37,362 bases of DNA, taken from IMG/VR virus record IMGVR_UViG_3300035698_009882, positions 1 to 37,362 of that record. One strand, written 5' to 3'. The position numbers and the translations under genes were made by a program. The first letter of the stretch is position 1; every line of letters starts with the position of its first letter. The notes under the pieces are model-generated. The model saw only the letters and a list, made by a program, of their open reading frames with translations. It did no database searches and was not told where the DNA came from. Shown one piece after another: positions 4,306 to 34,754 of the stretch. The DNA is from a virus.

Positions 4306-7020
4306 ATGGCACAAAAAATAAGATTAGACCTTAGCAAATTCAAAGCAAGTGGTGTATACACTTTGGAATTTGATCAGAGTGAAAATATTATACTAACACC
4401 ACAGACTATCCGTCTTGTTGTTGGTTTTTCAAAGAAAGGTCCTTTTAACTCACCAGTATTCTGTCCTGATATAAAGACAGCAAGAAGAGTGTTTGGAGAC
4501 ATTGACTCCTCACTAGAACGTAAAGGATCGTTTTTCCACAGATCTGTTTTTACATGTTTACAGAACGGGCCGATTTTCGCGCTCAACCTGTTAGCACTTG
4601 GTAATGACGATACTGTGAGTCCCGATCTTTCAGATAAGGTAGACTATGTTTCCTTCTCTGTTGACACAGTAGAAGATAACGGTATTCTTACCCCAAGACT
4701 TCTTAGCTCATACTATAATAAGGAACGATTTTGGTTCCCTTCTCCAGATTATTTGCTTGCCACTACTTCAACTCTGGATGATGAAAGACTTTTCCACTTC
4801 ACAAACCTTGGTAAGACTCCTATGTCTATCATCGTTAAGAAGTCAGAAGTTCTTGGATACGATCTAACCGCCAAAGAATGGTATGCAACTGGAGGCCCAA
4901 AGCCAGACTTCATGAATGACTATGACTATATCAATGATTTCTTTATTGATGTTGTTGCGATCGAAGGTAACTGGACAGATTATGCTGCGTTATCAATTGA
5001 TCCTGTTTATAGCACATACTTTAATGCAAGAGGATTTATCAAGGAAACCCTTGACCAATTCATCTCGCTTCCTGAGATTACAACACTAGCAAGTGTAACT
5101 GGAACAATTATTCCAGACTTCACTGACAAGAATGGTGTCAACCAATACATTGAGACAATCGTTAATAACACGGTTGCAACAACTGGAATGTTCTGTGCTG
5201 TTAATGAACTAGCACTTGATAATATCCTAACTAACACAAGTCAGTTGGATCTTGTTGGTCACAACTTGATTGGCGGAATTCTAGGTGGTCAAACTGATAT
5301 TGACCTTATTTCTTATAAGGCTCCTCTTATCAATGATTACGAATATCCGGATTCTGTACCTACGTATGTTGTAAACCCTGTTCCATTACCAGGAACATAT
5401 ACTACATTCCGAGCTATTGAAGCGACTCTTATTTACATTGCGTGGAAAGCAGGAACGATTACTGATGGTGATTACATTATCAAGGATGGCGTTGGAACTA
5501 AACAATACTTGAAATTTTTCGGTGGCGTTGATGGATTCGGTGATCCTTATGTAGATGTTCAAGCTTTTGATACTGCTGGATTTACAGCACAAGAAGATAT
5601 TGTACTTTTCGGTACAACTTATAATACTGCTGGAGCCCTTGTAGCAACCAACCTTAACATTGTTTCGGTTTACGGTGAATACAATCAGTATATCCAAACA
5701 ATTGCAGCTAACCCTGCTTTACCAGCACTTACAGCGAATCAATTCCTTGTCGATGCGACAGGACCAAACCCAGATTCAGACAAGGTTCCAGTTGGAGACC
5801 TTATCGTTGATAGCACTGGAGCAAGACTTACACGAATTTTAACTGCTGCTAAGTATGACCTCCTTGGTAATGAAGTTCTTATTACATGTGATAGCCCGGT
5901 ATTTGTTTACCCTTCAAACAGAGTTCAGAAGTTCGAAAGACTTGAGGACTTCGTTAAAGAGTACAACCTATTCTACCTTGGAGGATTTACACTTCAGGAA
6001 CGTCACATGCCAAACGGTACTGGAACGAGAATGAACCAGATACTAGACGTGATCTATGACACTAACCTGTCAGTTACACTTAAGAGTAAGGATGCTATTG
6101 ACTTCAGATACATTGTTGACACGTTCAACCACGGTATCGAACCAAACTCCAAGTGGAGACTATCCAAACTTGCAAAGTTACGTCAAAAGGCAATGGCCTT
6201 ATTGAACACACCTTCAATGAAGGAGTTCATCGACAGTACAGATCCGTATTTCACGGATGCACCAACTGCACCGAATCCTAAGCCATTACTTAATGCAAGA
6301 TACATCTCAACAGGTGGTAACCTTTCATTGAACCCTAGTTTCACTTATTCACTAGTTGATGAGGAGCTTGGATCTAAGTTCTGTGGATACTTTGCACCAA
6401 ACTTAGTATTGAGAGAGGGTGGCAAGAACATCTCAGTTCCACCATCAGCACACGTTTCTAACTTGTTCATTAACAAGTTCCTTAACGGTACTCCATATGC
6501 GATCGTAGCTGGTCCAAGAAGAGGTCTTATTTCAGATCCTAACTTGGTTGGCGTTGAGTATGAATTCTCAGATGAAGATAGAGCATATCTTGAACCATTC
6601 GGAATTAACCCAATTATCCGTAAGAGAGGACAAGGTGTTCAAATCTTCGGTAACCAATCAGGATTCCAGAGAGTTAACTCAGCATTCAATAACCTACACG
6701 TTAGAGACTTGCTGATCACTATTGAGTCTGACATTGAGACGATCCTATCAAACTACTTGTTTGAGTTTAACGATCCATCAACACGACTTGAGATCAAGAC
6801 AAAGGTTGACAACTACCTAGAAGGTGTTCAAGCTGCCGGTGGTGTTTACGATTCAGTAACCATCATGGACACATCGAACAACACTCCAGATATTATCGAT
6901 CAGAACATCGGAATTATCGATGTTATCGTAGAACCTGCAAGAGGAATTCACAAGTTTATCAACAGAGTAACAGTTGTTAGAACCGGTGCAGTCGCTTCAG
7001 GAGGATTTACAGTAGCATAA
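4306..7020 (+). CDS. Tail sheath protein (gp18-like)
   Basis: 904 residues; forms the contractile cylinder around the tail tube. The N-terminus (TLEFDQSENIILTP, then VVGFSKKGPFNSPV) and the C-terminal domain (NNLHVRDLLITIESDI, then VKVDNYLEG-like and IDVIVEPARGIHKFINRV) match the conserved ends of myovirus sheath proteins that make the inter-subunit mesh. T4 gp18 has 659 residues, so about 245 extra residues are present, mainly between roughly 270 and 560, where the sequence is beta-rich and less conserved in character; such inserts normally lie on the outer surface. It follows the terminase as in T4 (17-18-19). The start ATG lies behind an A/T-rich leader without a ribosome binding site. Confidence 0.95.
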   Translation: MAQKIRLDLSKFKASGVYTLEFDQSENIILTPQTIRLVVGFSKKGPFNSPVFCPDIKTARRVFGDIDSSLERKGSFFHRSVFTCLQNGPIFALNLLALGNDDTVSPDLSDKVDYVSFSVDTVEDNGILTPRLLSSYYNKERFWFPSPDYLLATTSTLDDERLFHFTNLGKTPMSIIVKKSEVLGYDLTAKEWYATGGPKPDFMNDYDYINDFFIDVVAIEGNWTDYAALSIDPVYSTYFNARGFIKETLDQFISLPEITTLASVTGTIIPDFTDKNGVNQYIETIVNNTVATTGMFCAVNELALDNILTNTSQLDLVGHNLIGGILGGQTDIDLISYKAPLINDYEYPDSVPTYVVNPVPLPGTYTTFRAIEATLIYIAWKAGTITDGDYIIKDGVGTKQYLKFFGGVDGFGDPYVDVQAFDTAGFTAQEDIVLFGTTYNTAGALVATNLNIVSVYGEYNQYIQTIAANPALPALTANQFLVDATGPNPDSDKVPVGDLIVDSTGARLTRILTAAKYDLLGNEVLITCDSPVFVYPSNRVQKFERLEDFVKEYNLFYLGGFTLQERHMPNGTGTRMNQILDVIYDTNLSVTLKSKDAIDFRYIVDTFNHGIEPNSKWRLSKLAKLRQKAMALLNTPSMKEFIDSTDPYFTDAPTAPNPKPLLNARYISTGGNLSLNPSFTYSLVDEELGSKFCGYFAPNLVLREGGKNISVPPSAHVSNLFINKFLNGTPYAIVAGPRRGLISDPNLVGVEYEFSDEDRAYLEPFGINPIIRKRGQGVQIFGNQSGFQRVNSAFNNLHVRDLLITIESDIETILSNYLFEFNDPSTRLEIKTKVDNYLEGVQAAGGVYDSVTIMDTSNNTPDIIDQNIGIIDVIVEPARGIHKFINRVTVVRTGAVASGGFTVA

Positions 7021-7030
7021 TCAATAGATA

Positions 7031-7315
7031 ATGAAGTTAAAGAGATTCCATAATATATCAGAGAGTTTGTCATCGAAAGATGGTGGACTTACTAATTTGA
7101 ACGAAGGCGATGCGTATCAAGCCGATGTTCGACAATTGATTATGGCAATTGACAAATTCGCAAAAAATCAGGTGACGGATACAGATATAGTTATCAATAT
7201 TAAGCCAGGTCTACATGATCATTCAGCATTAACTGTTCCTTTTAATGCTGATAGTTATGAAAGACTTAAAGCATTCCTAGAAGCAGAAATCAAAGAAGAC
7301 AAAGAATTAGAATGA
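7031..7315 (+). CDS. Hypothetical small protein with capsid-targeting-like N-terminus
   Basis: 94 residues, starting 10 bases after the sheath stop. The first residues (MKLKRFHNISESLS) are basic and aromatic and are followed by I-S-E, the kind of site cut by the T4 prohead protease; similar N-termini occur in the genes at 22722, 23766 and 24724. The rest is soluble and mixed alpha/beta with an acidic C-terminus. No domain is recognised. The stop overlaps the next ATG (ATGA), so the two are probably translationally coupled. It may be an internal head protein or an accessory tail protein; neither is shown. Confidence 0.75.
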   Translation: MKLKRFHNISESLSSKDGGLTNLNEGDAYQADVRQLIMAIDKFAKNQVTDTDIVINIKPGLHDHSALTVPFNADSYERLKAFLEAEIKEDKELE

Positions 7316-7572
7316 AGAACTTAAGCGACATAGACAGTATATTAAACGAAGCCTTACAGATAGGAATCATCAGTGGAAAGACCACAGAGAAATCTGGAAT
7401 GGTCCAAACCATAGTTAAAAAAACACGTGGTGGCGATGGGTTTGATGTGACATTTCAAGTCAGTGGAACTATACGAGATGGTGAAGTTCCAGATGATGTA
7501 GAGCATACTATAAATGAAATAATGAAATCACTTCAAAAAGTAGTCGAAAAGGCGTTTCCAGAATTGCAATAA
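7312..7572 (+). CDS. Hypothetical small protein
   Basis: 86 residues, overlapping the preceding gene by 4 bases (ATGA). The N-terminus MKNLSDIDSILNEA is a short amphipathic helix ending in L-N-E. The centre (TIVKKTRGGDGFDVTFQVSG) looks like a beta hairpin, and the C-terminus is an amphipathic helix. No catalytic motif, membrane segment or cysteine pattern is seen. It belongs to the sheath-tube transcription unit. The endonuclease gene that follows begins four bases after its stop. Confidence 0.7.
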   Translation: MKNLSDIDSILNEALQIGIISGKTTEKSGMVQTIVKKTRGGDGFDVTFQVSGTIRDGEVPDDVEHTINEIMKSLQKVVEKAFPELQ

Positions 7573-7575
7573 GGT

Positions 7576-8283
7576 ATGACCAGTGGTGTTTATAAAATAC
7601 TGAACACAACCAACGGTAAACTTTATATCGGAAGTTCCATAGATATGTCAAAACGATATAGCTACCATGTTAACTTATTAAATGCCGGAGCACATCCAAA
7701 TTCACACCTACAAAGTGCATGGAAAAAGCACGGATCTGACGTTTTCCAATTTGATATTATTGAGCATGCTGATAATGAATCATTAGTTGAACGTGAACAA
7801 CACTATTTAGATACGATACAACCCTTTGGTAAGCTCGGATATAACATATGTACAGTTGCATATAGTTGTCTTGGTATAAAGCGATCAGAGGAGACCAAAC
7901 GACTAATGAGCAAAGTTAAGCTTGGTGACAAGAACCCAATGTTTGGCCGACCTGTTTCAGAAGAGACCAGACAAAAACTTAGTGATGCTAATGGTGGTGA
8001 AAATCATTGGTCTTATGGAAAAAGTAGATCTACTGAAACATTAGAGAAAATACGTCAAGGTTCATCAGATAAACCTATTACGGATAAAACCAAGGAAAAA
8101 CTTAGTGACTCTGGAAAAACTGCGTGGACAAAAAGAAAATCTTATTCGCGACAGGTTTCTGTCGACGGAAAGATATATAAATCAATAAGAGCTGCTGCAA
8201 ATGACCTAATGGTTAATAAAGATACAGTTTCTTATAAATGTAAACAGGAAAATTACCAAGAATATTTTTTCCTAACTAATTGA
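7576..8283 (+). CDS. GIY-YIG homing endonuclease
   Basis: 235 residues. The N-terminal nuclease domain has GVY at 4-6, YIG at 17-19, R27, and E73 in VEREQHYLD, the expected GIY-YIG residues. Then come repeated S-E-E-T-x-x-K/R-x-x-M/L-S motifs with N-P-M-F-G-R-P (NUMOD3 modules, about 100-175) and a C-terminal helix-turn-helix (YKSIRAAANDLMVNKDTVSYKC) of the NUMOD1 type. This is the layout of free-standing phage endonucleases such as the T4 Seg proteins. It cuts DNA lacking the gene and is copied in by repair. It is inserted in the same orientation between the sheath unit and the tail tube gene, so it is probably co-transcribed with late genes. Confidence 0.93.
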   Translation: MTSGVYKILNTTNGKLYIGSSIDMSKRYSYHVNLLNAGAHPNSHLQSAWKKHGSDVFQFDIIEHADNESLVEREQHYLDTIQPFGKLGYNICTVAYSCLGIKRSEETKRLMSKVKLGDKNPMFGRPVSEETRQKLSDANGGENHWSYGKSRSTETLEKIRQGSSDKPITDKTKEKLSDSGKTAWTKRKSYSRQVSVDGKIYKSIRAAANDLMVNKDTVSYKCKQENYQEYFFLTN

Positions 8284-8296
8284 AAACCAAGTAACT

Positions 8297-8866
8297 ATGG
8301 CAGGTCTCTCGCATTACAAAAACTCCAAAGCAGGAATGAATAACTACGAACCAGTTTATCTAAACAAGTTTGAGGTAACTCTTGTTCCACCAAATGGAAT
8401 TGATGCCGGAGCTGGACAGAATGGACAGAACCTTATCCTAGAGCAGGTTAAGCGTGTATCTGGACTAGAACTTGACAAGAACCCTGGTGTTGTTGAACAA
8501 CATTACAAGTTTGCTAAGAGACGTTATGCTGGATCAAAGCCAGAGACAACCACTATGGATGTTACTATTGACTTTGAGGTCAACCTTAACGATGCAAACT
8601 CAATGTACACGTTCAAGACGTTGAGACAATGGTCTGACATTATTTACAATCCTTTAACGGGTGGTGAAGGTCTTAAGAAAGATTACGTTGGATCTGGACT
8701 AATTACAATGTTCAACAGAGCTGGAGACATCTTCAGACGGGTTAGAATGCCTGTTATCTGGCCAATGTCTGCAATCAATCCTATGGAACTTGATTACCAA
8801 TCAACGGAAGTTTACTCAATCTCACTGACATTCGCAGTGGATTTCTGGGAAGACATCTTTATCTAA
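8297..8866 (+). CDS. Tail tube protein (gp19-like)
   Basis: 189 residues against 163 for T4 gp19. The sequence shows the usual tube-protein order: an N-terminal NYEPVYLNKFEVTL strand, a central KPETTTMDVTIDFEVN strand, LRQWSDIIYNP, and the closing VYSISLTFAVDFWEDI strand pair. Such proteins form stacked hexameric rings inside the sheath, through which DNA passes. It lies after the sheath gene, displaced by an inserted endonuclease and two small genes. A strong terminator begins 59 bases after its stop, so it ends the tail shaft unit. Confidence 0.92.
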   Translation: MAGLSHYKNSKAGMNNYEPVYLNKFEVTLVPPNGIDAGAGQNGQNLILEQVKRVSGLELDKNPGVVEQHYKFAKRRYAGSKPETTTMDVTIDFEVNLNDANSMYTFKTLRQWSDIIYNPLTGGEGLKKDYVGSGLITMFNRAGDIFRRVRMPVIWPMSAINPMELDYQSTEVYSISLTFAVDFWEDIFI

Positions 8867-9057: not shown

Positions 9058-9906
9058 ATGATAGTTATAGGTAAAAATGCGATTCACCTTGAATTTTTCG
9101 AGGATGGAGAGAAAAGTATCTTAGAGATTGATCACGATTTGAACCCTCTTACAAGGTATATGGATCACACGGTAATGATCGAAGAAGATGTGACGGTTAG
9201 GGATCTGTTCATTCATATGGGACAGGAACCAGAGAACATTGATGCAGTATTTGACTCCAGTTTAGGAGGATACAGTTTTCAGTATTTCTTATCCGAAGCC
9301 TTGGAAGATTTTGTACCTGACGAAAAAGATGAGGATCTATTAAAATTTGCTGTATTTGTACATAAGTGTAACGTCGATTCTGATGAGCTCTTACACGACA
9401 TAAGGTTTGTTGTGGTAGGTAAGCACCCAGAAGAGAAAGGAGAGGACACAGACTACAGTATGGAGCTCACAGCGATCAATACCTACGGACATCTCCCGGT
9501 AAAGATCAACAAGGAGTATAATATTACAAAAACAGAAATCATTGACGGTGAACATATAGAAGTTCCACTATTCACCACAACTAAATCGATGACACTATAT
9601 GATCTACTTTCTTCACTTTTATTTGAGGTGAGTTATCATGGAACACCAGATATGCGATCCGACACCTTCGACCAGATGAAAGAAGAAGTCCGATCAAGAA
9701 TAATAGAAGCACGAAAAAACAATGAGGATGACTTCGACCCGATCTTGGATATTTCCAAGATCACGTACACGCCAGAGAATTTAGAAGTAGTTCTAGAAGA
9801 CCTGGAAACTAAATTAGAATTGTCTGTAACCGAGGAGCAGTACGAAACAAGTGCTTTCCTCCGAGATAGAATAAAGGTTCTGAAGAAAAAAATAAGCGAT
9901 CAATAA
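9058..9906 (+). CDS. Hypothetical protein with C-terminal UVR-like coiled-coil motif
   Basis: 282 acidic residues, not recognised as a whole. The first 230 residues are mixed alpha/beta with no catalytic signature. The last 40 (about 243-282) form a helical hairpin ending EEQYETSAFLRDRIKVLKKK, which fits the UVR motif consensus of UvrB, UvrC and McsA (L..A...E.YE.AA.LRD.I..L). The phage protein at 22219 ends in a similar motif. The gene is one base upstream of the gp26-like gene and follows a late-type promoter, so a tail or baseplate assembly role is plausible from position. In UVR proteins the motif mediates protein-protein contact. Confidence 0.75.
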   Translation: MIVIGKNAIHLEFFEDGEKSILEIDHDLNPLTRYMDHTVMIEEDVTVRDLFIHMGQEPENIDAVFDSSLGGYSFQYFLSEALEDFVPDEKDEDLLKFAVFVHKCNVDSDELLHDIRFVVVGKHPEEKGEDTDYSMELTAINTYGHLPVKINKEYNITKTEIIDGEHIEVPLFTTTKSMTLYDLLSSLLFEVSYHGTPDMRSDTFDQMKEEVRSRIIEARKNNEDDFDPILDISKITYTPENLEVVLEDLETKLELSVTEEQYETSAFLRDRIKVLKKKISDQ

Positions 9907-11252: not shown

Positions 11253-14200
11253 ATGGCACTAGATAAAATAGCGGGTCTATTGGGTATGTCGGCAAAAACA
11301 ATGTCCGACTCCGCCCGAAGTATTGATCAATATGCACAAATCCTGGAATCTCAAATGGAGACCCAGAATGCTCTACTTACCACGCTCGTGGATAAGATGG
11401 ATACGATCGCTGATAAGAAAGGTGCTAAAGGTGGTGGATTTGGAAATAAGAAAGGTGCATCATTAAAAGATACTGCAAACAGTTTAGGTGAGATCTCAAA
11501 GATCTTGCCAACACTAATTAAAAATTTGATCATCTTTCCAAAGAAGAGTGGTATCAAATTTGTCAGCTTTGTAAGAGATCTATCCGACGTAATAGAAGAC
11601 GTCTCGGCAAAGAAGTATAAAGAATTCGGTAATATGTTAACAGCTATGGGCGACCATATTGGTGACATAGCTATGGGCCTTTTGAAATTTAGAATATTGG
11701 TCGGGGCGAAGACAGTCGACATATTTGTTAGTTTCATAAAAGAGTTTTCCGAAGCATTAGGTGATATTGACCGTAAAGAAATAGCTGCCGGTGCCAAAGC
11801 ATTAAAGCAGATGTCTTCTGCTATTGCATCATTTGGATTTACGTTAATGATCGCTTCATTGGCCTATGCAATTGTAGGACCTATTGCCATGCTGACTGTT
11901 ATTCCTACTATTGCAGCATTTGGATATGTGTTTACTAAGATCGGTGAATCAGAAGAAAACATAAAGACTGGTGCACAAGCCATCGCCTGGATGGGTGTCG
12001 CAATCGTTAGTATGGGTGTTGCAATGGCAGTTACTCAGCTATTGGCTGGCGGTTCTTGGGGTGCTTTTGCAGAAGGTGCTCTGATTGTTACTACTGCTAT
12101 GATCGGATTTACATTGGTCTTCCGATTGTTAGAGGCCTTAGGCGCAGATAAAGTTAAAGAATCAGCTCAGTCTATGATGTGGGTTGGGTTTTCAATTATA
12201 TCTCTGGGAGTAGGAATTGCATTCTGGCAAATGGCGAGAATTGATTTTACATCAGTATTACACGTTGCAGCAGGTGTAGCTCTAGTAGGTTTAGCCTTTG
12301 GTCTTATTGGCATATTCAGTAAGCAAATCGAATCAGGTTCTCTGGCAATGATATTTACCGGATTGGCGATTTCTGCTCTTTCTGCTGGTATCTGGGTATT
12401 CAAGAAATTAGAAATAGGTACAGAAGATATTTTAAGAACCGGATTGGCCGTATTGACAATGGGTATATTATTTGGTCTGGCCGGTGCTGGTCCAATGCCT
12501 GGGTTTATTGCCCTTGGGTCTCTTGCTATGATCGGTGCAGCGATTGCAATTACAGCGATCGGTTTTGGCTTCTCAATTTTTAAAAAGTTCAAAGTTGATT
12601 TAGCGGATATTGGAATTATGGCCGGAGCGGTTACATCCCTTGGTGTTATGATGGCAGCGGCCGGAGCAATGTCATGGTTGATTATACCAGGATCAGCAGC
12701 GATAATATTGGCTGGTCTTGCTGTATCAAGTATATCCAAAGGTCTCAACGAATTTAAAACTGTAAAATTCGATGAAAAAGAAGCTGACAAACTTTCTTAC
12801 GTTGTACAATCAGTAGTATCAGCTTTTGCCGCCTCAGGTGGTGGTGCAAGTTTCATGAGTATTCCTCTTGGTCTTAATAATACCGAGATGGGTATTGAAG
12901 CTGTTGAAAAAGCTGGTAAAGCATTGATGAGTATTTCTAAAGGTCTAGTGAATTTCCGAGCGCTAAAACTGAGTAAATCTGAAGCGGAAGATCTATGGGG
13001 TAAAGAAGGATCTATTGTAATGACCATTGGTGGAATATCTTCGGCCTTTGGCGCTATTGGTGGGAAGAATTCTGCGGCGGCTAAAGGAAGCCTATTAGGT
13101 TTTATTGGCATTGAACGTAATGCTGTTGAAGAAGGAATAAAATCTGTGACGCACGTCAGTAAAGCACTTATGGATATAGGTAAGGGTATAATTGCCATAA
13201 GAAAAATGAAACTCGGAAAGAAAGAAGCTGCAGATATATTTGGCGAAGGTGGATCTCTTGAAGTTATCATGTCTGGTATTAGTACAGCATTTGCTTCTGC
13301 AGGCGGTAGTAAAGCCAGGAAAGGAAAGAGTTTGTTAGGCTGGATCGGTGTTGAAAAAAATGAGGTTGAAGATGGTATCAATGCTGTGAAGAATGTTGGA
13401 AGTACATTAGTAAGTTTAGCTGCAGGAGTTCAAGGATTCGCCAATTTGGAATTTACAGATCCAATAACTGGTAAGAAGATTAAAATGGACTCAGCAACAT
13501 TAGGATTAGTAACAACTAATATAGGATCAGTAGTAAATGCAGTTTCCACTGTGTTTGGACAGATTGGTGCGGGAACAGAAAGTTCTGGTGGTCTTGCTGG
13601 ATTCTTTGGCGCAAAGGATAATAAGGTTTCTGATGGTATTGAAGCAGTAAAGGGCATTGGAGCAGAATTAGTCAATATTGCAGATGGTGTAGTGAAATTT
13701 GCTAGGATGACATTTAAAGATCCATTGACAGGGAAAACTCTTGACATTGATAGTTCAATGTTTGGTTTGGATGGAGTAATTTTTAAGAATATTCTTATGG
13801 TTGTAACTGCCGTTTCCACCGTATTTGGACAAATTGGAGCCGGTACAACAGATGCAAGCGGCATTGCAGGATTCTTTGGTGCAAAGGATAATAATGTATC
13901 ACTCGGTATTGAAGCAGTAAAGGGAATAGGATCTGAACTTGTTAGTATTGCAGACGGTGTTCTGAAATGGGCTAAAATGCCGGATCTTAAAGGAAGTATT
14001 GCTAATATTAAAAGTGTATTGACAACAGTCCCAGCAGAATTTCTCCTTGCCTATACAACATATTTACAGAAGCTCGAAAACACTGAAGCCTTTTCGGTGT
14101 TTGATAAATTCAGCGATTTGATTGGAGATATGGCCGATTCTATAAATGATATTCCGGTTGATACAAAAACTAAAACAATTGGTCTTGTCAAATTCATACA

Positions 14201-14666
14201 GGACTTGACAAAAGAAGTTGATCCATTAAGTAAACTTGCTGATTCGTTTGAACGATTGGCAGATGGTATGGAGAACGTTGCCAAGTCATATAAGACAATG
14301 GATCAGGTTACGTTAGACAAGCACAAATTACTTCTTGATTCTCTGGTAGTATTCTCGGAGGTCGATCCTAATAGCTCAAGTGCTGTAAGTGATAGAGGTA
14401 AGCAACTTCTTGATTATGTTCAAAACGGAACAACCCCAGGTGCTCCGGGTGCAGCGGGTGGAACAACCCCAACCCCAGCACCTACGACATCAAAACAAGC
14501 CGGGACAAAAGATGCATCCAAGAAAGCTACACCAGCTCAGACAGTTGATAACAGCGGATTGGAAATGCAATTAGAAGCTATACAGAAAACACTTGCTGGT
14601 ATAAAAACACAGCTTGGTGGAACCCTTAAAGTTAAGGACTCCGGAAATGGTGGTCTATTTGGGTAA
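11253..14666 (+). CDS. Tape measure protein
   Basis: 1137 residues. It sets tail length and is thought to occupy the tube lumen. The N-terminal 75 residues are helical, with a Gly/Lys linker (KGAKGGGFGNKKGAS). Residues about 190-500 contain many long hydrophobic Ala/Gly/Ile segments, typical of tape measures that later enter the host membrane. Residues about 517-925 hold five tandem repeats of 78-90 residues with the core EAVKGIGxELVxIADGV. The C-terminus carries a Pro/Thr/Ala-rich linker (TPGAPGAAGGTTPTPAPTTS) and a final helix. T4 gp29 is shorter (590). At the usual roughly 1.5 angstrom per residue the tail would be about 170 nm; this is an estimate. Confidence 0.88.
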   Translation: MALDKIAGLLGMSAKTMSDSARSIDQYAQILESQMETQNALLTTLVDKMDTIADKKGAKGGGFGNKKGASLKDTANSLGEISKILPTLIKNLIIFPKKSGIKFVSFVRDLSDVIEDVSAKKYKEFGNMLTAMGDHIGDIAMGLLKFRILVGAKTVDIFVSFIKEFSEALGDIDRKEIAAGAKALKQMSSAIASFGFTLMIASLAYAIVGPIAMLTVIPTIAAFGYVFTKIGESEENIKTGAQAIAWMGVAIVSMGVAMAVTQLLAGGSWGAFAEGALIVTTAMIGFTLVFRLLEALGADKVKESAQSMMWVGFSIISLGVGIAFWQMARIDFTSVLHVAAGVALVGLAFGLIGIFSKQIESGSLAMIFTGLAISALSAGIWVFKKLEIGTEDILRTGLAVLTMGILFGLAGAGPMPGFIALGSLAMIGAAIAITAIGFGFSIFKKFKVDLADIGIMAGAVTSLGVMMAAAGAMSWLIIPGSAAIILAGLAVSSISKGLNEFKTVKFDEKEADKLSYVVQSVVSAFAASGGGASFMSIPLGLNNTEMGIEAVEKAGKALMSISKGLVNFRALKLSKSEAEDLWGKEGSIVMTIGGISSAFGAIGGKNSAAAKGSLLGFIGIERNAVEEGIKSVTHVSKALMDIGKGIIAIRKMKLGKKEAADIFGEGGSLEVIMSGISTAFASAGGSKARKGKSLLGWIGVEKNEVEDGINAVKNVGSTLVSLAAGVQGFANLEFTDPITGKKIKMDSATLGLVTTNIGSVVNAVSTVFGQIGAGTESSGGLAGFFGAKDNKVSDGIEAVKGIGAELVNIADGVVKFARMTFKDPLTGKTLDIDSSMFGLDGVIFKNILMVVTAVSTVFGQIGAGTTDASGIAGFFGAKDNNVSLGIEAVKGIGSELVSIADGVLKWAKMPDLKGSIANIKSVLTTVPAEFLLAYTTYLQKLENTEAFSVFDKFSDLIGDMADSINDIPVDTKTKTIGLVKFIQDLTKEVDPLSKLADSFERLADGMENVAKSYKTMDQVTLDKHKLLLDSLVVFSEVDPNSSSAVSDRGKQLLDYVQNGTTPGAPGAAGGTTPTPAPTTSKQAGTKDASKKATPAQTVDNSGLEMQLEAIQKTLAGIKTQLGGTLKVKDSGNGGLFG
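12801..14030 (+). repeat. Five tandem repeats inside the tape measure gene
   Basis: Copies begin near 12801, 13035, 13278, 13541 and 13812 (steps of about 234-271 bases). Each encodes a V/I-S-x-x-F-x-x-x-G-G start, a G-F-F-G-A or G-x-I-G block, then G-I-E-A-V-x-x-x-G and L-x-x-I-A-x-G-V. Copies 4 and 5 are nearly identical at the protein level over about 55 residues, which suggests a recent duplication; copies 1-3 are diverged. Confidence 0.8.
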
Positions 14667-15510: not shown

Positions 15511-16206
15511 ATGGAGCAAAAGGAAATTCAAACACTAGCACTACAGTTTGTAGCAACAAATAACAGCAAAGACTTTAAGCCTTTGTACGACAGATTAAAA
15601 CCAGGTCTTATTATTTACGTTTACAACATTCTTAAAAATCAAGCTGCAGCCGAAGATGTCGTTGCGGATTCCTTTGTAAAGATGTGGTCAAAGATCGAGC
15701 AGTATAATCCATACTGGAACTTTTCTACTTGGGCATACAGAATCACACGTAACGAGACAATGCAATGGATTCGTAAGAATGGTAAGACACATTCATTAGA
15801 AGCCTTAGGTGGAGAGGAAATAGCGGATAAGATCATTCTATCCGATGCCGCTGCCGAGGATAATGGTCTAGACTTCATAGAACAGCCTAACTGGGAATTT
15901 GACGATGATACTGATCCGATGATGGTTCTGTATGCTAAGGTTCGTGATGATCTCGAGAATTTACCAGATCTGTATCGTGACATCATGAAAGACAGAGAAC
16001 TCAATCAGATGAAGTATGAAGACATCTCAGAAAAATATGGTTTGGAATTGAATACGGTTAAGACAAGAATCAAGCGAGCTCGTGAGAAACTGAAGAAAAG
16101 TGCTCGTGAGCTAATTGCATCATCCGATGGTAAATTGAACATCATGAATACAAGGGTTGCCGAAGACAAACCTGTTGAGGTTCCCGAGATTCCTGAGGAA
16201 CAATAA
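15511..16206 (+). CDS. ECF-like RNA polymerase sigma factor
   Basis: 231 residues. Region 2 (about 22-92) contains AAAEDVVADSFVKMWSKI and FSTWAYRITRNETMQWIRK, the core-binding and -10-reading helices of sigma-70 family proteins of the ECF group. After an acidic linker (about 95-135), region 4 (about 140-200) has LPDLYRDIMKDRELNQMKYE and a helix-turn-helix with NTVKTRIKRAREKLKK, which should read the -35 element. T4 directs late transcription with the reduced sigma gp55 (185 residues); this protein may do the same job but keeps a full region 4. The start is behind a purine-rich GAAAGAGAGA. It is probably transcribed from the GAAAC-type sites upstream of 14829. Confidence 0.9.
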   Translation: MEQKEIQTLALQFVATNNSKDFKPLYDRLKPGLIIYVYNILKNQAAAEDVVADSFVKMWSKIEQYNPYWNFSTWAYRITRNETMQWIRKNGKTHSLEALGGEEIADKIILSDAAAEDNGLDFIEQPNWEFDDDTDPMMVLYAKVRDDLENLPDLYRDIMKDRELNQMKYEDISEKYGLELNTVKTRIKRAREKLKKSARELIASSDGKLNIMNTRVAEDKPVEVPEIPEEQ

Positions 16207-17058: not shown

Positions 17059-17727
17059 TTATTTACGCATTTTAAATTTACGTTTTCTTTTACGTTGATT
17101 TATCAAAGGTATATTTAATTCTACATAATTATAATTATCCAAATTATTTAATCGTCTTCTTATTGTTTGTCTAACCACGCCTAAAGTTTTTGCTGCTTCA
17201 TTTACCGTTTGATAAATTATATTATCAATTTTTATTTTTCTGGCATTAGCGTTTCTAGTACCTGTTCGCCCTTTCTTTTTGTTAGTCTTAATAGAATATT
17301 TTTTACCCGTTTGTTTTACTCGTATTTTTTGTTTGTGCTCTTCCGTTTTATTCCAAGCGCCCGAATCCTTTAATATTTTGATACGATCTTTATCGAATTT
17401 ATGCCCTTTAAGAATACCTTCGAATCCTTTCTTGGCAAATCCACCGTTTATAAATTCTTGTGATTTTACAACATTATATTTTAATTGATAAAATAATTCT
17501 CTTTCTGATAGATTTTCCATATCTACAACTTCTAATATTTTAAAAACAAATGTTGTCGGACGACTGTAAACGTTCTGTTTCCACTGTTGTTGTATTTTAT
17601 ACTTGGGATGACCTAATGCTTTGATACCAGGACTACCAAAATAAGTACCTGGTCCTTTCCAATCTTTCTTTGATCCTAAGTATTTAGTTTTCAAAATTAG
17701 ATCCGTTATAAGATATATTACATCCAT
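17059..17727 (-). CDS. Putative GIY-YIG-like homing endonuclease
   Basis: 222 residues. The N-terminus has IYLIT at 4-8, KYLGSKKDW at 15-23 and TYFGSP, a GIY-YIG-like pair of strands in a divergent form. E75/E77 in LSERELFYQLKY can supply the metal-binding acid. There follow short basic repeats (EEHKQKIRVKQTGKK) and a NUMOD1-like helix-turn-helix (YQTVNEAAKTLGVVRQTIRR), with a very basic C-terminus. It is on the strand opposite to its neighbours and richer in A/T, and lies between a small gene and the exonuclease gene. GATATATAC at 17731-17739 (minus strand) sits just before its start. Confidence 0.78.
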   Translation of the reverse strand: MDVIYLITDLILKTKYLGSKKDWKGPGTYFGSPGIKALGHPKYKIQQQWKQNVYSRPTTFVFKILEVVDMENLSERELFYQLKYNVVKSQEFINGGFAKKGFEGILKGHKFDKDRIKILKDSGAWNKTEEHKQKIRVKQTGKKYSIKTNKKKGRTGTRNANARKIKIDNIIYQTVNEAAKTLGVVRQTIRRRLNNLDNYNYVELNIPLINQRKRKRKFKMRK

Positions 17728-19801: not shown

Positions 19802-20572
19802 ATGTCGAATTTTTATGTTTATGTTTATTTAGATCCTCGTAAATGTGGACATTATATTTATGATGAATTTTCATTTGACTCAGAGCCATTTTATATTGGC
19901 CTTGGTAGTAAAAATAGGTTGAATTTTCATATTAACGCGGCAAAGAATAACAAAAAGATTAGGAATAAGAATATATCGAAAATTAAAAGTATTCTATCTA
20001 CTAATCATGAACCTATTATTCTTAAGATTAAGGAAAATTTATCATCACAAGAGGCCATCAAGTTAGAAATCAAACTTATTGATCTAATAGGTCGATCAGA
20101 TTTTAATATGGGACCTTTAATGAACATGACGGCTGGTGGTGACGGCTTAATAAATCCTAGTGTTGCTACCTGTCGAAAAATTTCTGAATCTTTATTAAAA
20201 TCAGAAAAACATAAAGCAGCATATAGTTGTCCAAAACGAAACAAAAAGATTAGTTTGAGTTTACAAGGACACACAATTTATACAGATGCCACAAGAAATA
20301 AAAAAATTTCGGAAACACTTACAGGAAAACCCGGACACAAACAAACAATTGAAACAAGAAACAAGATAAGTGAAAATAATGCTAAGTATTGGTTAGATAA
20401 AGGCGTATCTATTTTACAATATTCATTAGATGGTATTTTTATAAAACAATGGAACTCGGCTCGACAAGTCGAACGAGAAATAAAGTTTAGACATGATAGT
20501 ATAACATTATGTTGTAAGGGTATCCGAAAGACTGCATACAAATTCAAATGGGAGTATCAAGAAAATGTATAA
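19802..20572 (+). CDS. GIY-YIG homing endonuclease
   Basis: 256 residues. The nuclease domain begins FYVYVYLDPRK (5-15) and has FYIGLG at 31-36, then N and R residues in the following helix and E in IKLEIKLIDLIG (about 88), a GIY-YIG variant with a longer first hairpin. NUMOD3-like repeats (K-I-S-E-S/T-L) follow, and a C-terminal NUMOD1-like module (LQYSLDGIFIKQWNS to YKFKWEY). The protein at 32639-33484 has the same start (YVYVYLDPRK...FEPFYIG) and is clearly related. It lies in frame order between two coupled membrane-protein genes; its end overlaps the next start by 8 bases. Confidence 0.88.
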   Translation: MSNFYVYVYLDPRKCGHYIYDEFSFDSEPFYIGLGSKNRLNFHINAAKNNKKIRNKNISKIKSILSTNHEPIILKIKENLSSQEAIKLEIKLIDLIGRSDFNMGPLMNMTAGGDGLINPSVATCRKISESLLKSEKHKAAYSCPKRNKKISLSLQGHTIYTDATRNKKISETLTGKPGHKQTIETRNKISENNAKYWLDKGVSILQYSLDGIFIKQWNSARQVEREIKFRHDSITLCCKGIRKTAYKFKWEYQENV

Positions 20573-22218: not shown

Positions 22219-22686
22219 ATGGACAAACATCTGAATAAACTAATCAATGCAGCGATCAAAGACCTCGACTGGGGAATTATCGTGGCCAATTATAAAGATT
22301 ACGAAGTTTTACACACTAAGAATAATAAGCGAGACAAATCTGTAACGAGTATCAAAAAGGATTTAAGAAATCTGTGTAAATACATTGTCGATAATAACAT
22401 CAGTTATTTCGATCAAGATCAATTTATTGTTATCTGGCATTCTGCTGGAATTGATGATAAACTCGGGAACAAACTTGAAATCCTTTACGTACCAACGAGA
22501 TCATGCACATTTACTACTGAAGTAGAGTATGAACAGAGAGAAGACGAGACAGATAATGTCGAAGAGGAATTGAATGCCTTACACAGTTTACTAGACGGTG
22601 CGGTTTTAGATGAAAATTACGAACTCGCAGCAATCTTAAGGGATCGCGTACAAACTCTTGAAAAAGGATTAGTATACGTCAAATAA
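22219..22686 (+). CDS. Hypothetical protein with C-terminal UVR-like motif
   Basis: 155 residues. The frame is open upstream to 22126, but that part contains the promoter motif, so I start at ATG 22219 (MDKHLNKLINAAIKDLDWG). The middle has strands (DQFIVIWHSAGI, KLEILYVPTRS). The last 35 residues form a helical hairpin with LDENYELAAILRDRVQTLEK, a good match to the UVR motif of UvrB/UvrC/McsA. The protein at 9058 ends in a similar motif, although the rest of the two proteins is unrelated by eye. No function is assigned. Confidence 0.78.
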   Translation: MDKHLNKLINAAIKDLDWGIIVANYKDYEVLHTKNNKRDKSVTSIKKDLRNLCKYIVDNNISYFDQDQFIVIWHSAGIDDKLGNKLEILYVPTRSCTFTTEVEYEQREDETDNVEEELNALHSLLDGAVLDENYELAAILRDRVQTLEKGLVYVK

Positions 22687-22721: not shown

Positions 22722-23162
22722 ATGGATAAGATTTTATCATACAAGAAGTTTAATGAATCATTCGGTGCTCAGGCTTTTAGCGAGCCAATGTACGGTAGCG
22801 ATATATTCAAAATTAAACATCGAGCACTCAAGGACATGTCGAATAAAAGGATGGACAAAGTGAATGCTAAGCCAATCAATGACCTATTGGACCGGTTCGG
22901 TGTAGGGGACGTTGTAAGAGGTAAAGCAATTTCAGACGGATCTTTTTATGAAGGCAAGATTGTGAACATCGGTAAAGACGAGGAGGGAGAAAACATTTCG
23001 ATCAGTATCGAATGTGAAGGAACCGTAATGGAACTTGCATCGGCAACTGTAACTTTTTCAGAAGACGGTGGCGATGTAGGCAATAGAGTACGAACTAATA
23101 TCGATTCTGATACTACGGATGTAAGTAAGTACGCAGAATTCGAACCAACATCTTACGAATAA
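22722..23162 (+). CDS. Hypothetical protein with capsid-targeting-like N-terminus
   Basis: 146 residues. It starts MDKILSYKKFNESFG: a basic/aromatic peptide ending F-N-E, comparable with the short peptide that sends T4 internal proteins into the prohead. The middle (RFGVGDVVRGKAISDGSFYE) reads like a small SH3/KOW-type barrel, followed by more strands. No catalytic residues are seen. It begins a block of four similarly headed late genes behind a GATATATAA motif. If the peptide is real, the product would be packaged and perhaps ejected with DNA. Confidence 0.75.
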   Translation: MDKILSYKKFNESFGAQAFSEPMYGSDIFKIKHRALKDMSNKRMDKVNAKPINDLLDRFGVGDVVRGKAISDGSFYEGKIVNIGKDEEGENISISIECEGTVMELASATVTFSEDGGDVGNRVRTNIDSDTTDVSKYAEFEPTSYE

Positions 23163-23166
23163 AAAC

Positions 23167-23769
23167 ATGGACAGAACTAGCAAATTAAAATCATACTCCG
23201 GACGAAAGATAATCACTTTCGAAAACTTCGGCAATGATGACGAATCAACAATGGCTAATGAAGTAAAGAAGCCGTTTATGAAAGAACTCATTAAAGAGTT
23301 CGAGGAGAAGGGAATCACGGTACAATCAGCAGAAGATCCAACTTGGGAATCTGATGGTTATATCGAGCTATCTGATACGACACACTTGATCGTTGAAAAA
23401 GATGGGTCACATAAGGCCGGTCTTGAATTGAACAAGGACAAAACAATATTCACAAAAAGTACGACCGATCTTTCGGAAACACTAATTGCTCTTGCTCAAC
23501 TCAAAGAAAAGTGGGAAGTAGAAGAGGCAGATTACACAGTAGAGTCTGTGAGTCCTGCACCTCAATCGCCGTTTCTAATGAAGCAACGAGCTTCTAAAGT
23601 AGGGAAAGCAGCCAGATTGGTTCGGATCGCCTTAGAGGAGCTTAAACACGCCCCTAAGCTAGACGAGATGTCTGACATACCAGATCTAATTGAACAATTG
23701 GAGAAAATCGTAGGAGAAGACACAGGATTGTCAAATCTTGCAAAATTATACGAGGCTGAAACGAAATGA
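23167..23769 (+). CDS. Hypothetical protein
   Basis: 200 residues, four bases after the previous stop. The N-terminus (MDRTSKLKSYSGRKIITFENFGNDDE) is basic then aromatic and resembles the neighbours' leader peptides less closely. A small alpha/beta part (about 28-105) is followed by a helical C-terminal part (about 135-200, KAARLVRIALEELKHAPKL). The end overlaps the next gene by 4 bases. No family is recognised. Confidence 0.75.
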   Translation: MDRTSKLKSYSGRKIITFENFGNDDESTMANEVKKPFMKELIKEFEEKGITVQSAEDPTWESDGYIELSDTTHLIVEKDGSHKAGLELNKDKTIFTKSTTDLSETLIALAQLKEKWEVEEADYTVESVSPAPQSPFLMKQRASKVGKAARLVRIALEELKHAPKLDEMSDIPDLIEQLEKIVGEDTGLSNLAKLYEAETK

Positions 23770-24716
23770 AAAGATTACACAACTTTAAAGAATTCTTGAA
23801 CGAAAGAAACCTTAATGAAGGTGGTGGAGCAGGTATCGATATTACTATGGATGATTCTGTATCACTTCAAGCTATTTATGTTCTGACGAATGATAGAGTA
23901 CGTGTTGAAAAAGTTAATGTTGAGATAGGTGATTCATTCAAAGCCGAAGGGTATGATGATGGAATGTCCAACGTAGGTACTTGGTTATTGAAAGTTGATG
24001 ATGAGAATGCCAGATCTATTCCAAGAGAAAAATTCAATAGTATTGAACTGAACTTTATGACGGACGACGGTAAAGATGATCTTATCGCCAGTCTTTCGCC
24101 AGGTGGATCTAGTGATGTAACATCCGAAGGATATAAAACTGTTGGTGATTTGTTTAAGCAGTTCCCTGATCTAGAACTTCCACTACAATTTGATTTAACA
24201 TATATCGATTACAGTGAACAACATTTCGGTGGTTGGGTTCGTGGATCTATAGAAGTAGGATCTACTGTTATCGGTGGCGATAAAGCAACCTTTGATAACG
24301 GTGACAGTGATGAAATGACAATAGGTGAAGGTGATCACCAATTATATTCTGATGGTGAAGACGCACTTCACGGCGTCATAAAATACATTCAACCTGTATT
24401 GGTTGCAACAGAAGACTTTAAAAAGTTCTGGAATGTGACATTCAATAATGCTGATGAGAATTACACAGAGTATGCTAAGTCTGAAATGGAATATCAGGTT
24501 ACAGAAAATGAGGATGAATCATTCCATGAGTATGTTGAAGAATATCTTGAAGAAGTAGATTTAGGTATCACGCTCGAAGAATTCGTTGAGAAATATGAAG
24601 AGCACAAAGCTAAATTCGAGGAGTGGTTCTTAGAAAGTAAGCACCGTGATTATTTCCATGAAAACTATTCATCCAGTAACCAAGAATCTTGGTCTCCAGA
24701 GAATAAGCCGGGGTAA
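23766..24716 (+). CDS. Hypothetical acidic protein with capsid-targeting-like N-terminus
   Basis: 316 residues, very acidic after a basic start. MKRLHNFKEFLNERNLNEGGG matches the leader pattern well, with L-N-E twice as possible prohead protease sites. The middle is beta-rich (DLPLQFDLTYIDYSEQ-like region and GGWVRGSIEVGSTVIGG), the C-terminal 100 residues are acidic helices (EEYLEEVDLGITLEEFVEKYE). No catalytic motif is visible. A packaged internal protein or a core/scaffold component are both possible. Confidence 0.75.
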   Translation: MKRLHNFKEFLNERNLNEGGGAGIDITMDDSVSLQAIYVLTNDRVRVEKVNVEIGDSFKAEGYDDGMSNVGTWLLKVDDENARSIPREKFNSIELNFMTDDGKDDLIASLSPGGSSDVTSEGYKTVGDLFKQFPDLELPLQFDLTYIDYSEQHFGGWVRGSIEVGSTVIGGDKATFDNGDSDEMTIGEGDHQLYSDGEDALHGVIKYIQPVLVATEDFKKFWNVTFNNADENYTEYAKSEMEYQVTENEDESFHEYVEEYLEEVDLGITLEEFVEKYEEHKAKFEEWFLESKHRDYFHENYSSSNQESWSPENKPG

Positions 24717-24723
24717 AGGAACC

Positions 24724-25134
24724 ATGAACAACCACATTAAACTTTTTGAAGCTTTCAATGAAACTGTAGTCACAGTAGAAGATAGTGAAAGTACCAACCC
24801 TTCTTTTGAAAAGGGCACAATGCAAAACTTCCGACTTAAAGGTGGGGTTCTTGAAATAGGGAAAGTAAATAAAGCACGTAATTATTCGGTCTTGCATTTA
24901 TACGTTGATGAAGAAAGTAGAAGACAAGGAATAGCATCCAGTTTACTGAAGAAAGCGTTGGAAGAAACCAAAGGAAAACTAGCAGGCCAAGCAAGCAACG
25001 ATGCATCTGTTGAGTTGAATTATAAATTAGGGATGAGGGCTTTTAAAGATGATAAGGAATTATCTTTGGCTGATACAAAGAAGAGCAGAGCAGAAAGAGG
25101 ATCAATTAGAATGACTCTACCAGAAGCCAGATAA
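24724..25134 (+). CDS. GNAT-type acetyltransferase with capsid-targeting-like N-terminus
   Basis: 136 residues. The frame is open upstream, but the ATG at 24724 is preceded by AAAGGA and follows the previous stop by 7 bases. The N-terminus MNNHIKLFEAFNE fits the leader pattern of the block. Residues about 58-110 carry the GNAT core: a strand (YSVLHLYVDEESR), the acetyl-CoA loop RRQGIASSLL (R/Q-x2-G-x-A) with its helix, then ASVELNYKLGMRAF, the usual closing S/N..N-Y-x-x-x-G-F-like element. It should move an acetyl group from acetyl-CoA to an amine; the target is not known. The first GNAT strands appear shortened. Confidence 0.8.
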   Translation: MNNHIKLFEAFNETVVTVEDSESTNPSFEKGTMQNFRLKGGVLEIGKVNKARNYSVLHLYVDEESRRQGIASSLLKKALEETKGKLAGQASNDASVELNYKLGMRAFKDDKELSLADTKKSRAERGSIRMTLPEAR

Positions 25135-32638: not shown

Positions 32639-33484
32639 TCACATTTGGCGTCTATGTTTATCAAACCATATAAATGTTTCTTTTATTCGGGGTGCTTGAC
32701 CGTTACAAGATCTGCGGATTTTATTGATAGGAATATTAAGATGTTTTGATGCTTCTGTTATAGATTCCCATATTTTTTCGCTTCCATTTAGGATTTGTAT
32801 TACAGATAATTTCGCAGCAGAGTTGCTCATTTTCTGTTTGGTTTTTTGACTTTTTGGTTTCCTAAGTTTGTTTTTGGTTTCCTCCGTATGTTTTGGCATT
32901 TTAACAGTCTTAGAAAGATGTCCTTGTAAAATATCCGCTGAATTTTTATATTTCCAAACAAATCCACCACAAGAATTATATTTACCATTAGCGGCACAAC
33001 CTACATTTTGTTGGATTAACCCTGTGTGCTTGCATGCACTTTTTATAGATTCATATTCCGCTACGAATACACCCTCTTTTGTAAATTGAAAAACAGGTTT
33101 AGATAAAACCTTTCTCCATTCTGGAGAAATATTAGTAGTACCTTCACCACCATCAGTCATATTAACAAGTGGACCATGGTTAAGATCATATCGACCTATT
33201 AACGCAATCAAATTTATTTCTTTTTGTAACGCTTCATTCTCTAAAAGATTAACATATAATTTTTCAACTATTGGCACAAATCCGTCTTTGATCAGTTTTT
33301 TTACTTTTCTAACTTTGTGTTGATTACCAATACCTTTAAATAATCTTGTTCCTTGATAACATCGATCGCCATGGCCTTTGCCAATATAAAATGGTTCGAA
33401 ATCAAATTGTATATCATTATTATATATAAATTTTCCAGCCTTTCGAGGATCTAAATAAACATATACATAAAAAATTTCTTCCAT
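32639..33484 (-). CDS. GIY-YIG homing endonuclease
   Basis: 281 residues from ATG 33484; the frame is open to 33538 but that part overlaps the promoter and start of the next gene. The N-terminus MEEIFYVYVYLDPRKAGKF and FEPFYIGKGHGDR (about 32-44) form the GIY-YIG strands in the same form as in the protein at 19802. E in LQKEINLIALIGR can supply the acidic residue, and N-x-T-D-G-G-E-G follows as in that relative. The rest holds HTEETKNKLRK (NUMOD3-like) and two NUMOD1-like helix-turn-helix segments (ESIKSACKHTG and ESITEASKHLNIPINKIRRS). It stands next to the FEN-like nuclease gene on the opposite strand. Confidence 0.9.
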   Translation of the reverse strand: MEEIFYVYVYLDPRKAGKFIYNNDIQFDFEPFYIGKGHGDRCYQGTRLFKGIGNQHKVRKVKKLIKDGFVPIVEKLYVNLLENEALQKEINLIALIGRYDLNHGPLVNMTDGGEGTTNISPEWRKVLSKPVFQFTKEGVFVAEYESIKSACKHTGLIQQNVGCAANGKYNSCGGFVWKYKNSADILQGHLSKTVKMPKHTEETKNKLRKPKSQKTKQKMSNSAAKLSVIQILNGSEKIWESITEASKHLNIPINKIRRSCNGQAPRIKETFIWFDKHRRQM

Positions 33485-33490
33485 TATAAT

Positions 33491-33520
33491 TAGAACATTT
33501 ATGTATATATCATATACAAT
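33491..33520 (+). promoter_or_regulatory. GAAC-type promoter candidate for the FEN-like nuclease
   Basis: TAGAAC (33491-33496), 18 bases, TACAAT (33515-33520). ATG 33519 would overlap the second box, which favours ATG 33537 as translation start. The layout is the same as the element at 8971 (GAACATTT ... TACAAT). Confidence 0.5.
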
Positions 33521-33536
33521 GAAAAAAATAATTACC

Positions 33537-34754
33537 ATGACTAAAATAAATATTCTTCTGGACGGTAACTTTTTGTTCCATCTAGTGTATTCGGTTTATT
33601 CCGGTTGGGCTGATAAGGATGTTTTTAAGACTGAGAAGAACGAAGTAGAGTTCTTACAAGAGGTCGCTAATAAAATGTTCTATGCCTTGAACCATCTTCC
33701 AAAAGGTGGTGATGTAGTATTCACTATTGATTCTAAGAGCTGGAGGAAAGGTGTTGACATTCCTGGTGGAGGATATAAGAGTTCTCGTCAGGATAAAGAT
33801 GGCAACAAGAAAGGTATGGATGAAGAAACTGTACGTATATTCTTCAGACTGATGGAAGAATACGGTAGATACCTTTCACGAGTTGGCATCATTGTTTCTC
33901 GAATTAGTGGTGCAGAGGGTGATGATTTGATTTACAGATGGGCAAAGCACTATTTTGCAAAAGGTCAATCATGTATCATTATGTCAGCTGACCGTGACCT
34001 TACTCAATTAGTTGAATTAGGAAAAGACAATTGGATTATCCAATGGAACAACAGGAAGAACAGTAAGACATTTAAGAATACGTTTTATGTTCCTGCCGGT
34101 TGGAAACAACAATGGTTAGGTGTGGCAGATGAATCATCCATTTTCAACTTTGACATTGGTAATGATAAAGAATCGATTCTTCAATTGATCCGAGATCAAG
34201 AGATTACCATTCTTGAAACACATCCACATGATGTGATAATGAACAAGATCTTAGAAGGTGATGATAGTGATGACGTACCACCAGTTTGGACTAATCCGTC
34301 TCTTGACGCTGAAGGAAATCAAAGGTACAGTAAAACAGGTCGTCCGTTAAGTACCCGTATGACTGGTAAGAAGCCTGCCCAGGCTCTCGAATACCTTAAA
34401 GATAAGTATGACGTCAACGAAGACAATTACATGGACAAATGGGATGATCCTGATTTCATGTCTGATTGTGCTGGTCTTATTCTACGCTTAACAAAGGATG
34501 TTGATGGATCTGCTGAAAGACTTAAGGTTATTGAAGCAATGCACCTTAATGCAAAACTTATTTGGTTGAAAGAGGATTTGTTACCTTATAATATGATTGC
34601 TGAAATGGATCTACATATAGATCAGATGGATGCGAACAACGTAACACAAAGACATCGTTGGAATCGAAAAGGTTTATTCGAGAATTCAAAATACTCTGAA
34701 ACTGCTATTCCAGATGCACACGATCCATTTTTTGGCTTAACAGTACCAGATTAA
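33537..34754 (+). CDS. FEN-like 5'-3' exonuclease / RNase H (T4 Rnh-like)
   Basis: 405 residues from ATG 33537 (ATGs at 33501 and 33519 are alternatives). The FEN/5'-nuclease metal sites are present: ILLDGNFLFH near the start, GAEGDDLIYRWA (about 130-141), MSADRDLTQL (about 153-162) and ILEGDDSDDVPP (about 240-251, the helical DNA-binding and metal site). Enzymes of this family remove RNA primers and flaps from lagging strands; T4 RNase H has 305 residues. The extra length is mainly an insert of about 60 residues before the last metal motif and a longer C-terminus. It is expressed from its own GAAC-type promoter and is flanked by an endonuclease gene. Confidence 0.87.
   Translation: MTKINILLDGNFLFHLVYSVYSGWADKDVFKTEKNEVEFLQEVANKMFYALNHLPKGGDVVFTIDSKSWRKGVDIPGGGYKSSRQDKDGNKKGMDEETVRIFFRLMEEYGRYLSRVGIIVSRISGAEGDDLIYRWAKHYFAKGQSCIIMSADRDLTQLVELGKDNWIIQWNNRKNSKTFKNTFYVPAGWKQQWLGVADESSIFNFDIGNDKESILQLIRDQEITILETHPHDVIMNKILEGDDSDDVPPVWTNPSLDAEGNQRYSKTGRPLSTRMTGKKPAQALEYLKDKYDVNEDNYMDKWDDPDFMSDCAGLILRLTKDVDGSAERLKVIEAMHLNAKLIWLKEDLLPYNMIAEMDLHIDQMDANNVTQRHRWNRKGLFENSKYSETAIPDAHDPFFGLTVPD

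Follow-up and report, generated by a model that had tools for sequence, protein, structure and literature searches.

We conclude that a short N-terminal leader, carried by several genes of the viral DNA analysed here, is with a probability of roughly 0.78 a cleavable capsid-targeting sequence of the T4 type, which would mark the proteins behind it as cargo of the phage head, probably injected into the host. Behind this reading stand the leader itself, its enrichment at N-termini, its modularity, the prohead-type protease of related phages and a cleavage site shared by leaders and capsid propeptides. The window, 37,362 bases long, is an entire IMG/VR record and represents part of the genome of a T4-related myovirus, whose terminase is nearest to those of huge uncultured phages (LR756500 and LR756502, hereafter W01 and W04) and of Bacteroidota jumbo phages (PAU, PTm1, MA9V-1 and Lak). 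Its nearest relative is a 373,759-base record (G004, locus L108), the sheath proteins being 70% identical. The window also holds three homing endonuclease genes of the GIY-YIG/NUMOD/I-TevI type (7576-8283, plus strand; 17059-17727, minus; 19802-20572, plus) and a further one judged by eye only (32639-33538, minus), a sigma factor with regions 2 and 4 (15511-16206, plus; Pfam 6e-15 and 2e-10) which resembles an ECF sigma factor, and two otherwise different proteins (9058-9906 and 22219-22686, plus) that both end in a UvrB/UvrC (UVR) motif and both have G004 orthologues.

Table 1. Features of the window bearing on the leader (arrows mark proposed cleavage sites; scores are those of the leader profile)
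Feature	Position	Strand	Remarks
Terminase	2224-3978		assigned from similarity to relatives and position
Tail sheath	4306-7020		assigned from similarity to relatives and position
Small gene just 3' of the sheath gene, weak leader	7031-7315	+	MKLKRFHNISE↓SLS; score 3.0
Small gene with leader	7312-7572	+	MKNLSDIDSILNE↓ALQ; score 9.4
Tail tube	8297-8866		assigned from similarity to relatives and position
Long tape-measure-like gene	11253-14666		assigned from similarity to relatives and position
Leader of gene 22722	22722-22757	+	MDKILSYKKFNE↓; score 5.9
Leader-bearing protein, 146 aa, no known family	22722-23162	+	start MDKILSYKKFNE↓SFG
Protein of 200 aa in the same gene run, no convincing leader	23167-23769	+	MDRTSKLKSYSGRKIITFENFGNDDE; score 4.4
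Leader of gene 23766	23766-23804	+	MKRLHNFKEFLNE↓; score 16.4
Possible second cleavage site of gene 23766	23811-23819	+	LNE↓GGGAGID; conserved in the G004 alignment
Leader-bearing protein, 316 aa, fold not assigned	23766-24716	+	start MKRLHNFKEFLNE↓RNL
Leader of acetyltransferase gene 24724	24724-24762	+	MNNHIKLFEAFNE↓; score 10.3
GNAT acetyltransferase, 136 aa	24724-25134	+	acetyl-CoA loop RRQGIA; Pfam PF13673 2e-6, PF00583 6.3e-6

The gene starts and the sequence bear out the peptides that an earlier, sequence-only reading of this DNA had quoted at 22722, 23766 and 24724, all within a block of four tightly packed genes (22722-25134) running in one direction. The T4 capsid-targeting sequence is matched best by gene 23766, with F-x-x-F-L-x-E as compared with Y-x-x-F-I-x-E in T4, and the leader of this gene is kept in the G004 orthologue (75079-76017, minus strand, 36% identity), where MKRLHNFKEFLNE is aligned with MKRIFGFNEFVNE and F7, E9, F10, N12 and E13 are invariant. 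In T4 the leader is cut by gp21 after L/I-x-E; targeting is governed by its residues 4 and 7 (Y4 and F7) and processing by residues 8 and 10 (PMC9026906). These four positions of the T4 internal proteins line up with F7, F10, L11 and E13 of gene 23766. The leaders of 24724, 22722 and 7312 have residues similar to the T4 targeting residues but shifted. The processing site L/I-x-E is fitted by 23766 (LNE), 7312 (LNE) and 7031 (ISE), whereas at P3, where T4 has L or I, 22722 and 24724 both show F (FNE) and thus agree with a relaxed rule only, as do many leaders of W04. The peptides claimed at 22722 and 7031 are indeed present, but each is weak taken alone since the profile scores, 5.9 and 3.0, fall below 8.

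The protein of gene 22722 has no Pfam or PHROGs match and nothing in the phage-collection search, and its orthologue was found in G004 only, at 348871, with 37% identity and a start (MKHLVIFEAF..) which differs yet is still leader-like; a second site of the E↓P kind, AFSE↓PMY at residues 18-21, is aligned with YAE↓PTY of the orthologue. Gene 23167 has neither relatives nor a G004 counterpart, and gene 23766 gave no matches in the phage-collection and viral-contig searches; an AlphaFold model of its product with one orthologue was of very low confidence (pLDDT 36) and was discarded. The leader of 7312 had been overlooked in the sequence-only reading and is conserved, a homologue with the start MKKLSTIDEFINE↓ALQ following the sheath gene in three further loci (L001-L003), and G004 likewise has a leader gene after its sheath gene (MKNLKGFDQLNE↓A at 334023). 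The proposal that the block is one late-type unit is unsupported, since the T4 late-promoter motif shows no excess (2 matches against 4 expected). Neither is the block a conserved operon, since the orthologues of 22722 and 23766 are separated by some 270 kb in the G004 contig. With variable cargo set between conserved genes, it recalls the T-even phages, whose internal-protein genes vary likewise (PMC9026906).

That one protein of the block is a GNAT acetyltransferase, as had been proposed, is upheld by a domain exceeding two Pfam cut-offs and by a phmmer match (1.2e-3) to the N-acetyltransferase of PDB entry 4mbu. Its gene starts at the ATG at 24724 (MNNHIKLFEAFNE↓TVV) and not at the GTG at 24646. 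The protein has no relatives in the viral-contig search and no G004 counterpart, and the phage-collection search returned a single weak match, to another phage acetyltransferase. An AlphaFold model of the GNAT alone was likewise discarded for very low confidence (pLDDT 42). No ADP-ribosyltransferase domain was found with Pfam among the leader proteins of the window.

In order to count leaders beyond the window, a profile was trained on 127 leaders from two distant phages only, W01 and W04, with T4 left out, and was applied to every ATG-start window at a threshold score of 8, N-termini being compared with internal Met positions; the motif being about 12 residues long, such scores are soft. In the window 3/50 N-termini and 0/215 internal Met positions reach the threshold (p = 1.6e-3 against N-termini of Bacteroidota hosts), and the corresponding figures are 23/400 and 4/2166 in G004 (p = 6e-10 against hosts) and 17/228 and 4/1067 in G013. 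In the training phages they are 55/609 and 20/1710 for W01 and 190/892 and 13/3066 for W04 (loci L058-L077 and L095-L106), the largest tagged set seen, in which about 190 leaders begin with MKHL 45 times and with MKYL 29 times. Among Bacteroidota host N-termini just 2/823 score this high, and 1/105 in Crassvirales (crAss-like) controls that lack the S77 protease. Applied to the 241 ORFs of T4, the profile places first and fourth two ORFs which we take to be IPI and IPIII, and IPII, annotated with the leader MKTYQEFIAE at amino acids -10 to -1, comes joint sixth. The same profile gives low counts in other relatives (PTm1 3/277, MA9V-1 4/255, IMG/VR sheath loci 6/911), some of which bear a leader of another flavour, such as MKNFFSFINE↓A and MKTFTCFINE↓A in MA9V-1, and in PAU the flavour MKT[LI]xxL[YF]E↓, with A, S, G or D as the usual next residue, stands on 20 genes. 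All these counts are lower bounds because mechanical gene calling misses some starts, among them those of the G004 orthologue of 23766 and of a fifth G004 ADP-ribosyltransferase (ART) protein. Further leader genes, as anticipated by the sequence-only reading, thus exist in large numbers in G004 and in distant relatives and, with 7312, in the window itself; the spread over a clade of huge phages had escaped it.

Leader genes furthermore lie side by side more often than in shuffled gene orders, with 90 pairs against 38 expected in W04 (largest of 2000 shuffles 55), 20 against 4.7 in W01 and 9 against 1.8 in PAU; the shuffle test showed no such excess in G004 or G013. In PAU 15 of the 20 are found within a stretch of 37 ORFs around the S77 protease and capsid genes (p = 2e-11).

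The E of the leader has surroundings like those of a protease site. When heads were chosen on residues 1-7 only, in genomes outside the profile training, hydrophobic-x-E occurred at residues 8-16 in 26/42 as compared with 4-10/42 further down. P2 is N in 38-40% of W04 leaders and of the G004 set against a background of 7-9%, and P1' is S in 36% of W04 leaders against 9%; W01 differs at P1', with F in 41%. As for a gp21-like protease, which the sequence-only reading would have the phage encode, an S77 (gp21-family) protease is present in 22/22 large relatives examined, G004 included, as well as in the T4 control, the matches in three divergent huge phages (E = 1e-4 to 4e-6) not reaching the Pfam cut-off, and in W04 at least the protease gene adjoins the capsid gene, as expected. 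The search of the 37 kb window found none, nor was a capsid gene seen there, so that a protease of the window phage's own is predicted from G004. The major capsid propeptides of these phages terminate at a site like that of their leaders, SLNE↓SA in G004 and G013, ELYE↓NA in W01, QINE↓NA in W04 and EFINE↓AA or FLNE↓SI in MA9V-1, which agrees with the proposed T4-type leader. The capsid protein of PAU is processed from 585 aa to a mature 520 aa according to N-terminal sequencing (PMC5646251). This is a loss of about 65 residues, at or beside LME64↓N, a cut at ALME64↓N leaving 521 aa and thus being one residue off.

The bodies behind the leaders are, as was also claimed, almost all unrelated. 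Clustering after removal of the first 16 residues gave 170 families for the 190 leader proteins of W04, 45 for 53 proteins of W01 and 22 for 23 of G004, and paralogous expansion can be rejected on these numbers. Homologues of the anti-CBASS protein Acb1 occur with the leader (MKLKKYKQFIKE↓SINGHKYGCVMIDV in W07, MIKKYLEFMKE↓S in W04) and without it (MRQYGCVMLNV in G004), so that, with the unrelated bodies, the leader behaves as a portable module. Five Acb1 homologues were seen in huge phages (L259, L260, L261, L263 and L264); a leader is present on four of them and clearly missing from the fifth.

Every one of the five ART-PolyVal domains of G004 has a leader before it (four were scored and one, MFEQFVFE↓STYNVLHGT, was recognized by eye), and other leader proteins of this phage are a NUDIX hydrolase, a UPF0227 hydrolase, a topoisomerase IB and an Acb1-like protein. 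One 416-aa protein (L203:4330-5577, plus strand) has a leader followed by GNAT and ART-PolyVal domains, and a topoisomerase IB catalytic core (L220:12614-13660, plus strand) stands behind the leader MKHIKSFDDHVSE, which as head cargo would be unusual for a phage. These ADP-ribosyltransferases and the GNAT-ART fusion lend weight to the earlier suggestion of Alt-type effectors; ART-PolyVal as a general cargo is however rejected, as it was present only in G004 among 17 genomes. The W04 leader proteins include polyphosphate kinase 2, RNA ligase, NUDIX, Acb1, methyltransferases and phage lysozyme, and at least one with a membrane PQ-loop domain, which is odd as head cargo, so that not every tag need mean packaging; the very large W04 count likewise implies that some tagged proteins may stay unpackaged. 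Taken together, the domains behind the leaders fit host modification and counter-defence.

The alternative that the leaders are accidental, low-GC phage genes often beginning with MK and hydrophobic or aromatic residues and the E falling in place by chance, is very improbable. It is true that loose patterns match 2-3% of internal Met positions as well, that the crAss-like control also yields a hit and that the leaders of 22722 and 7031 score low, and for the latter alone a chance origin is possible. Chance is however excluded for the leader set as a whole by its enrichment over internal Met positions and hosts, with 6-21% of N-termini in G004, G013, W01 and W04, and is furthermore at odds with the conserved leader of 23766 and with the adjacency of leader genes in W04. 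A tag for some place other than the head interior, such as a phage-made compartment, the membrane or the tail, with the E not being a cleavage site, is unlikely. A fifth of all W04 ORFs, a membrane-domain protein among them, are many for head cargo, and small leader genes adjoin the tail sheath gene, as such a tag might suggest; but the capsid propeptides of the same phages show an identical site signature (N at P2; S, N or A at P1'), the PAU leader genes cluster around protease and capsid genes, and a profile never trained on the T4 internal proteins recovers them.

More serious, and still the less probable view of these proteins, is the possibility that they serve the prohead as structural or scaffold (core) proteins and are digested, or retained to shape the head, instead of being injected as effectors. 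T4 IPIII has an effect on head morphogenesis too (PMC9026906), the PAU leader genes sit among head genes, and the 22722 and 23766 proteins are without enzyme domains in Pfam. A core function agrees poorly, however, with leaders that precede enzyme domains for modifying host molecules or disarming defences and with bodies that are variable and often lineage-specific, and such a role for some leader proteins would leave room for effectors among the others.

The closest parallel to the proposed capsid-targeting leader is found in the internal proteins IPI, IPII and IPIII of T4, which have in common with it a short N-terminal peptide, aromatics three residues apart, a hydrophobic-x-E site, unrelated bodies and, in the relatives of the window, a gp21-family protease. 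T4 has three internal proteins and at least 10 are reported from T-even phages (PMC12373910), in contrast to the 17 to 190 leader genes counted here in each of the four richest of the scanned genomes, many with enzyme bodies, and the present leaders are longer and lineage-specific (MKHLKxYNE, MKYIxEYxEF, MKTLxxLYE). That such proteins can act in the host is documented by T4 Ip1, Ip2 and Ip3, which are injected and inhibit type IV restriction enzymes (PMC12373910). T4 Alt, a head-packed and injected protein, has a gp21-cut leader ahead of a host-protein-modifying enzyme (PMC9026906), and the window GNAT would have the same layout; Alt is however an ADP-ribosyltransferase with a 7-residue propeptide, and the G004 ART-PolyVal proteins are likened to it by activity type only. 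With phage GNATs proposed to modify host proteins, of the phiKMV Rac type, there is in common a GNAT fold in a large phage, and a jumbo phage survey predicts host modification by GNATs, the passages concerned mentioning neither leader nor packaging (PMC7824862). The head ejection proteins of the SPN3US/phiKZ type are similar in that many proteins occupy a large head and some of those of SPN3US are processed by the prohead protease, but they belong to a separate jumbo-phage lineage, which is known from proteomics of its own (PMC5694885, PMC7411985).

By analogy with T4, the leader would bind the prohead core during head assembly and bring its protein inside, the S77 protease would cut after hydrophobic-x-Glu to free the mature protein, and this would remain in the head with the DNA and be ejected into the next host. 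We regard targeting to the prohead as very likely, cleavage as nearly as likely, and injection as probable by a smaller measure. The mechanism would apply to the products of 23766, 24724 and 7312, and probably to that of 22722. If leader-tagged cargo is ejected with the DNA, the GNAT would therefore arrive in the cell ahead of any phage gene expression, where it would acetylate a host target; that it modifies a host protein is possible, at slightly less than even odds, and candidates, by analogy, are proteins of transcription, translation or defence.

More broadly, it is an evenly balanced proposition that in huge T4-related phages of Bacteroidota-type hosts the head is an effector-delivery machine, with the leader on up to about a fifth of the genes, tens to nearly two hundred proteins delivered before phage transcription and each lineage's leader matched to its own protease, the cargo comprising ADP-ribosyltransferases, acetyltransferases, anti-CBASS Acb1, RNA ligase, NUDIX, topoisomerase IB and polyphosphate kinase. 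To our knowledge little is known of the head contents of huge phages. The mechanism is familiar from T4, but its scale, the lineage-specific leader flavours and the ART, GNAT and Acb1 cargo in a clade of huge phages appear to be undescribed. The literature searched, mostly outside subscription journals and preprints and seen in part, gave no description of such leaders beyond the T-even phages, and an earlier one may exist. The cultured relatives PAU, PTm1 and MA9V-1 make the proposed function of the leader directly testable. Should it mark head cargo, its presence on dozens to nearly two hundred unrelated proteins means that the injected repertoire may be readable from genomes, those of uncultured phages included, and the leader genes would then constitute a list of candidate proteins for host takeover and counter-defence in the first minutes of infection, along with lineage-specific packaging tags.
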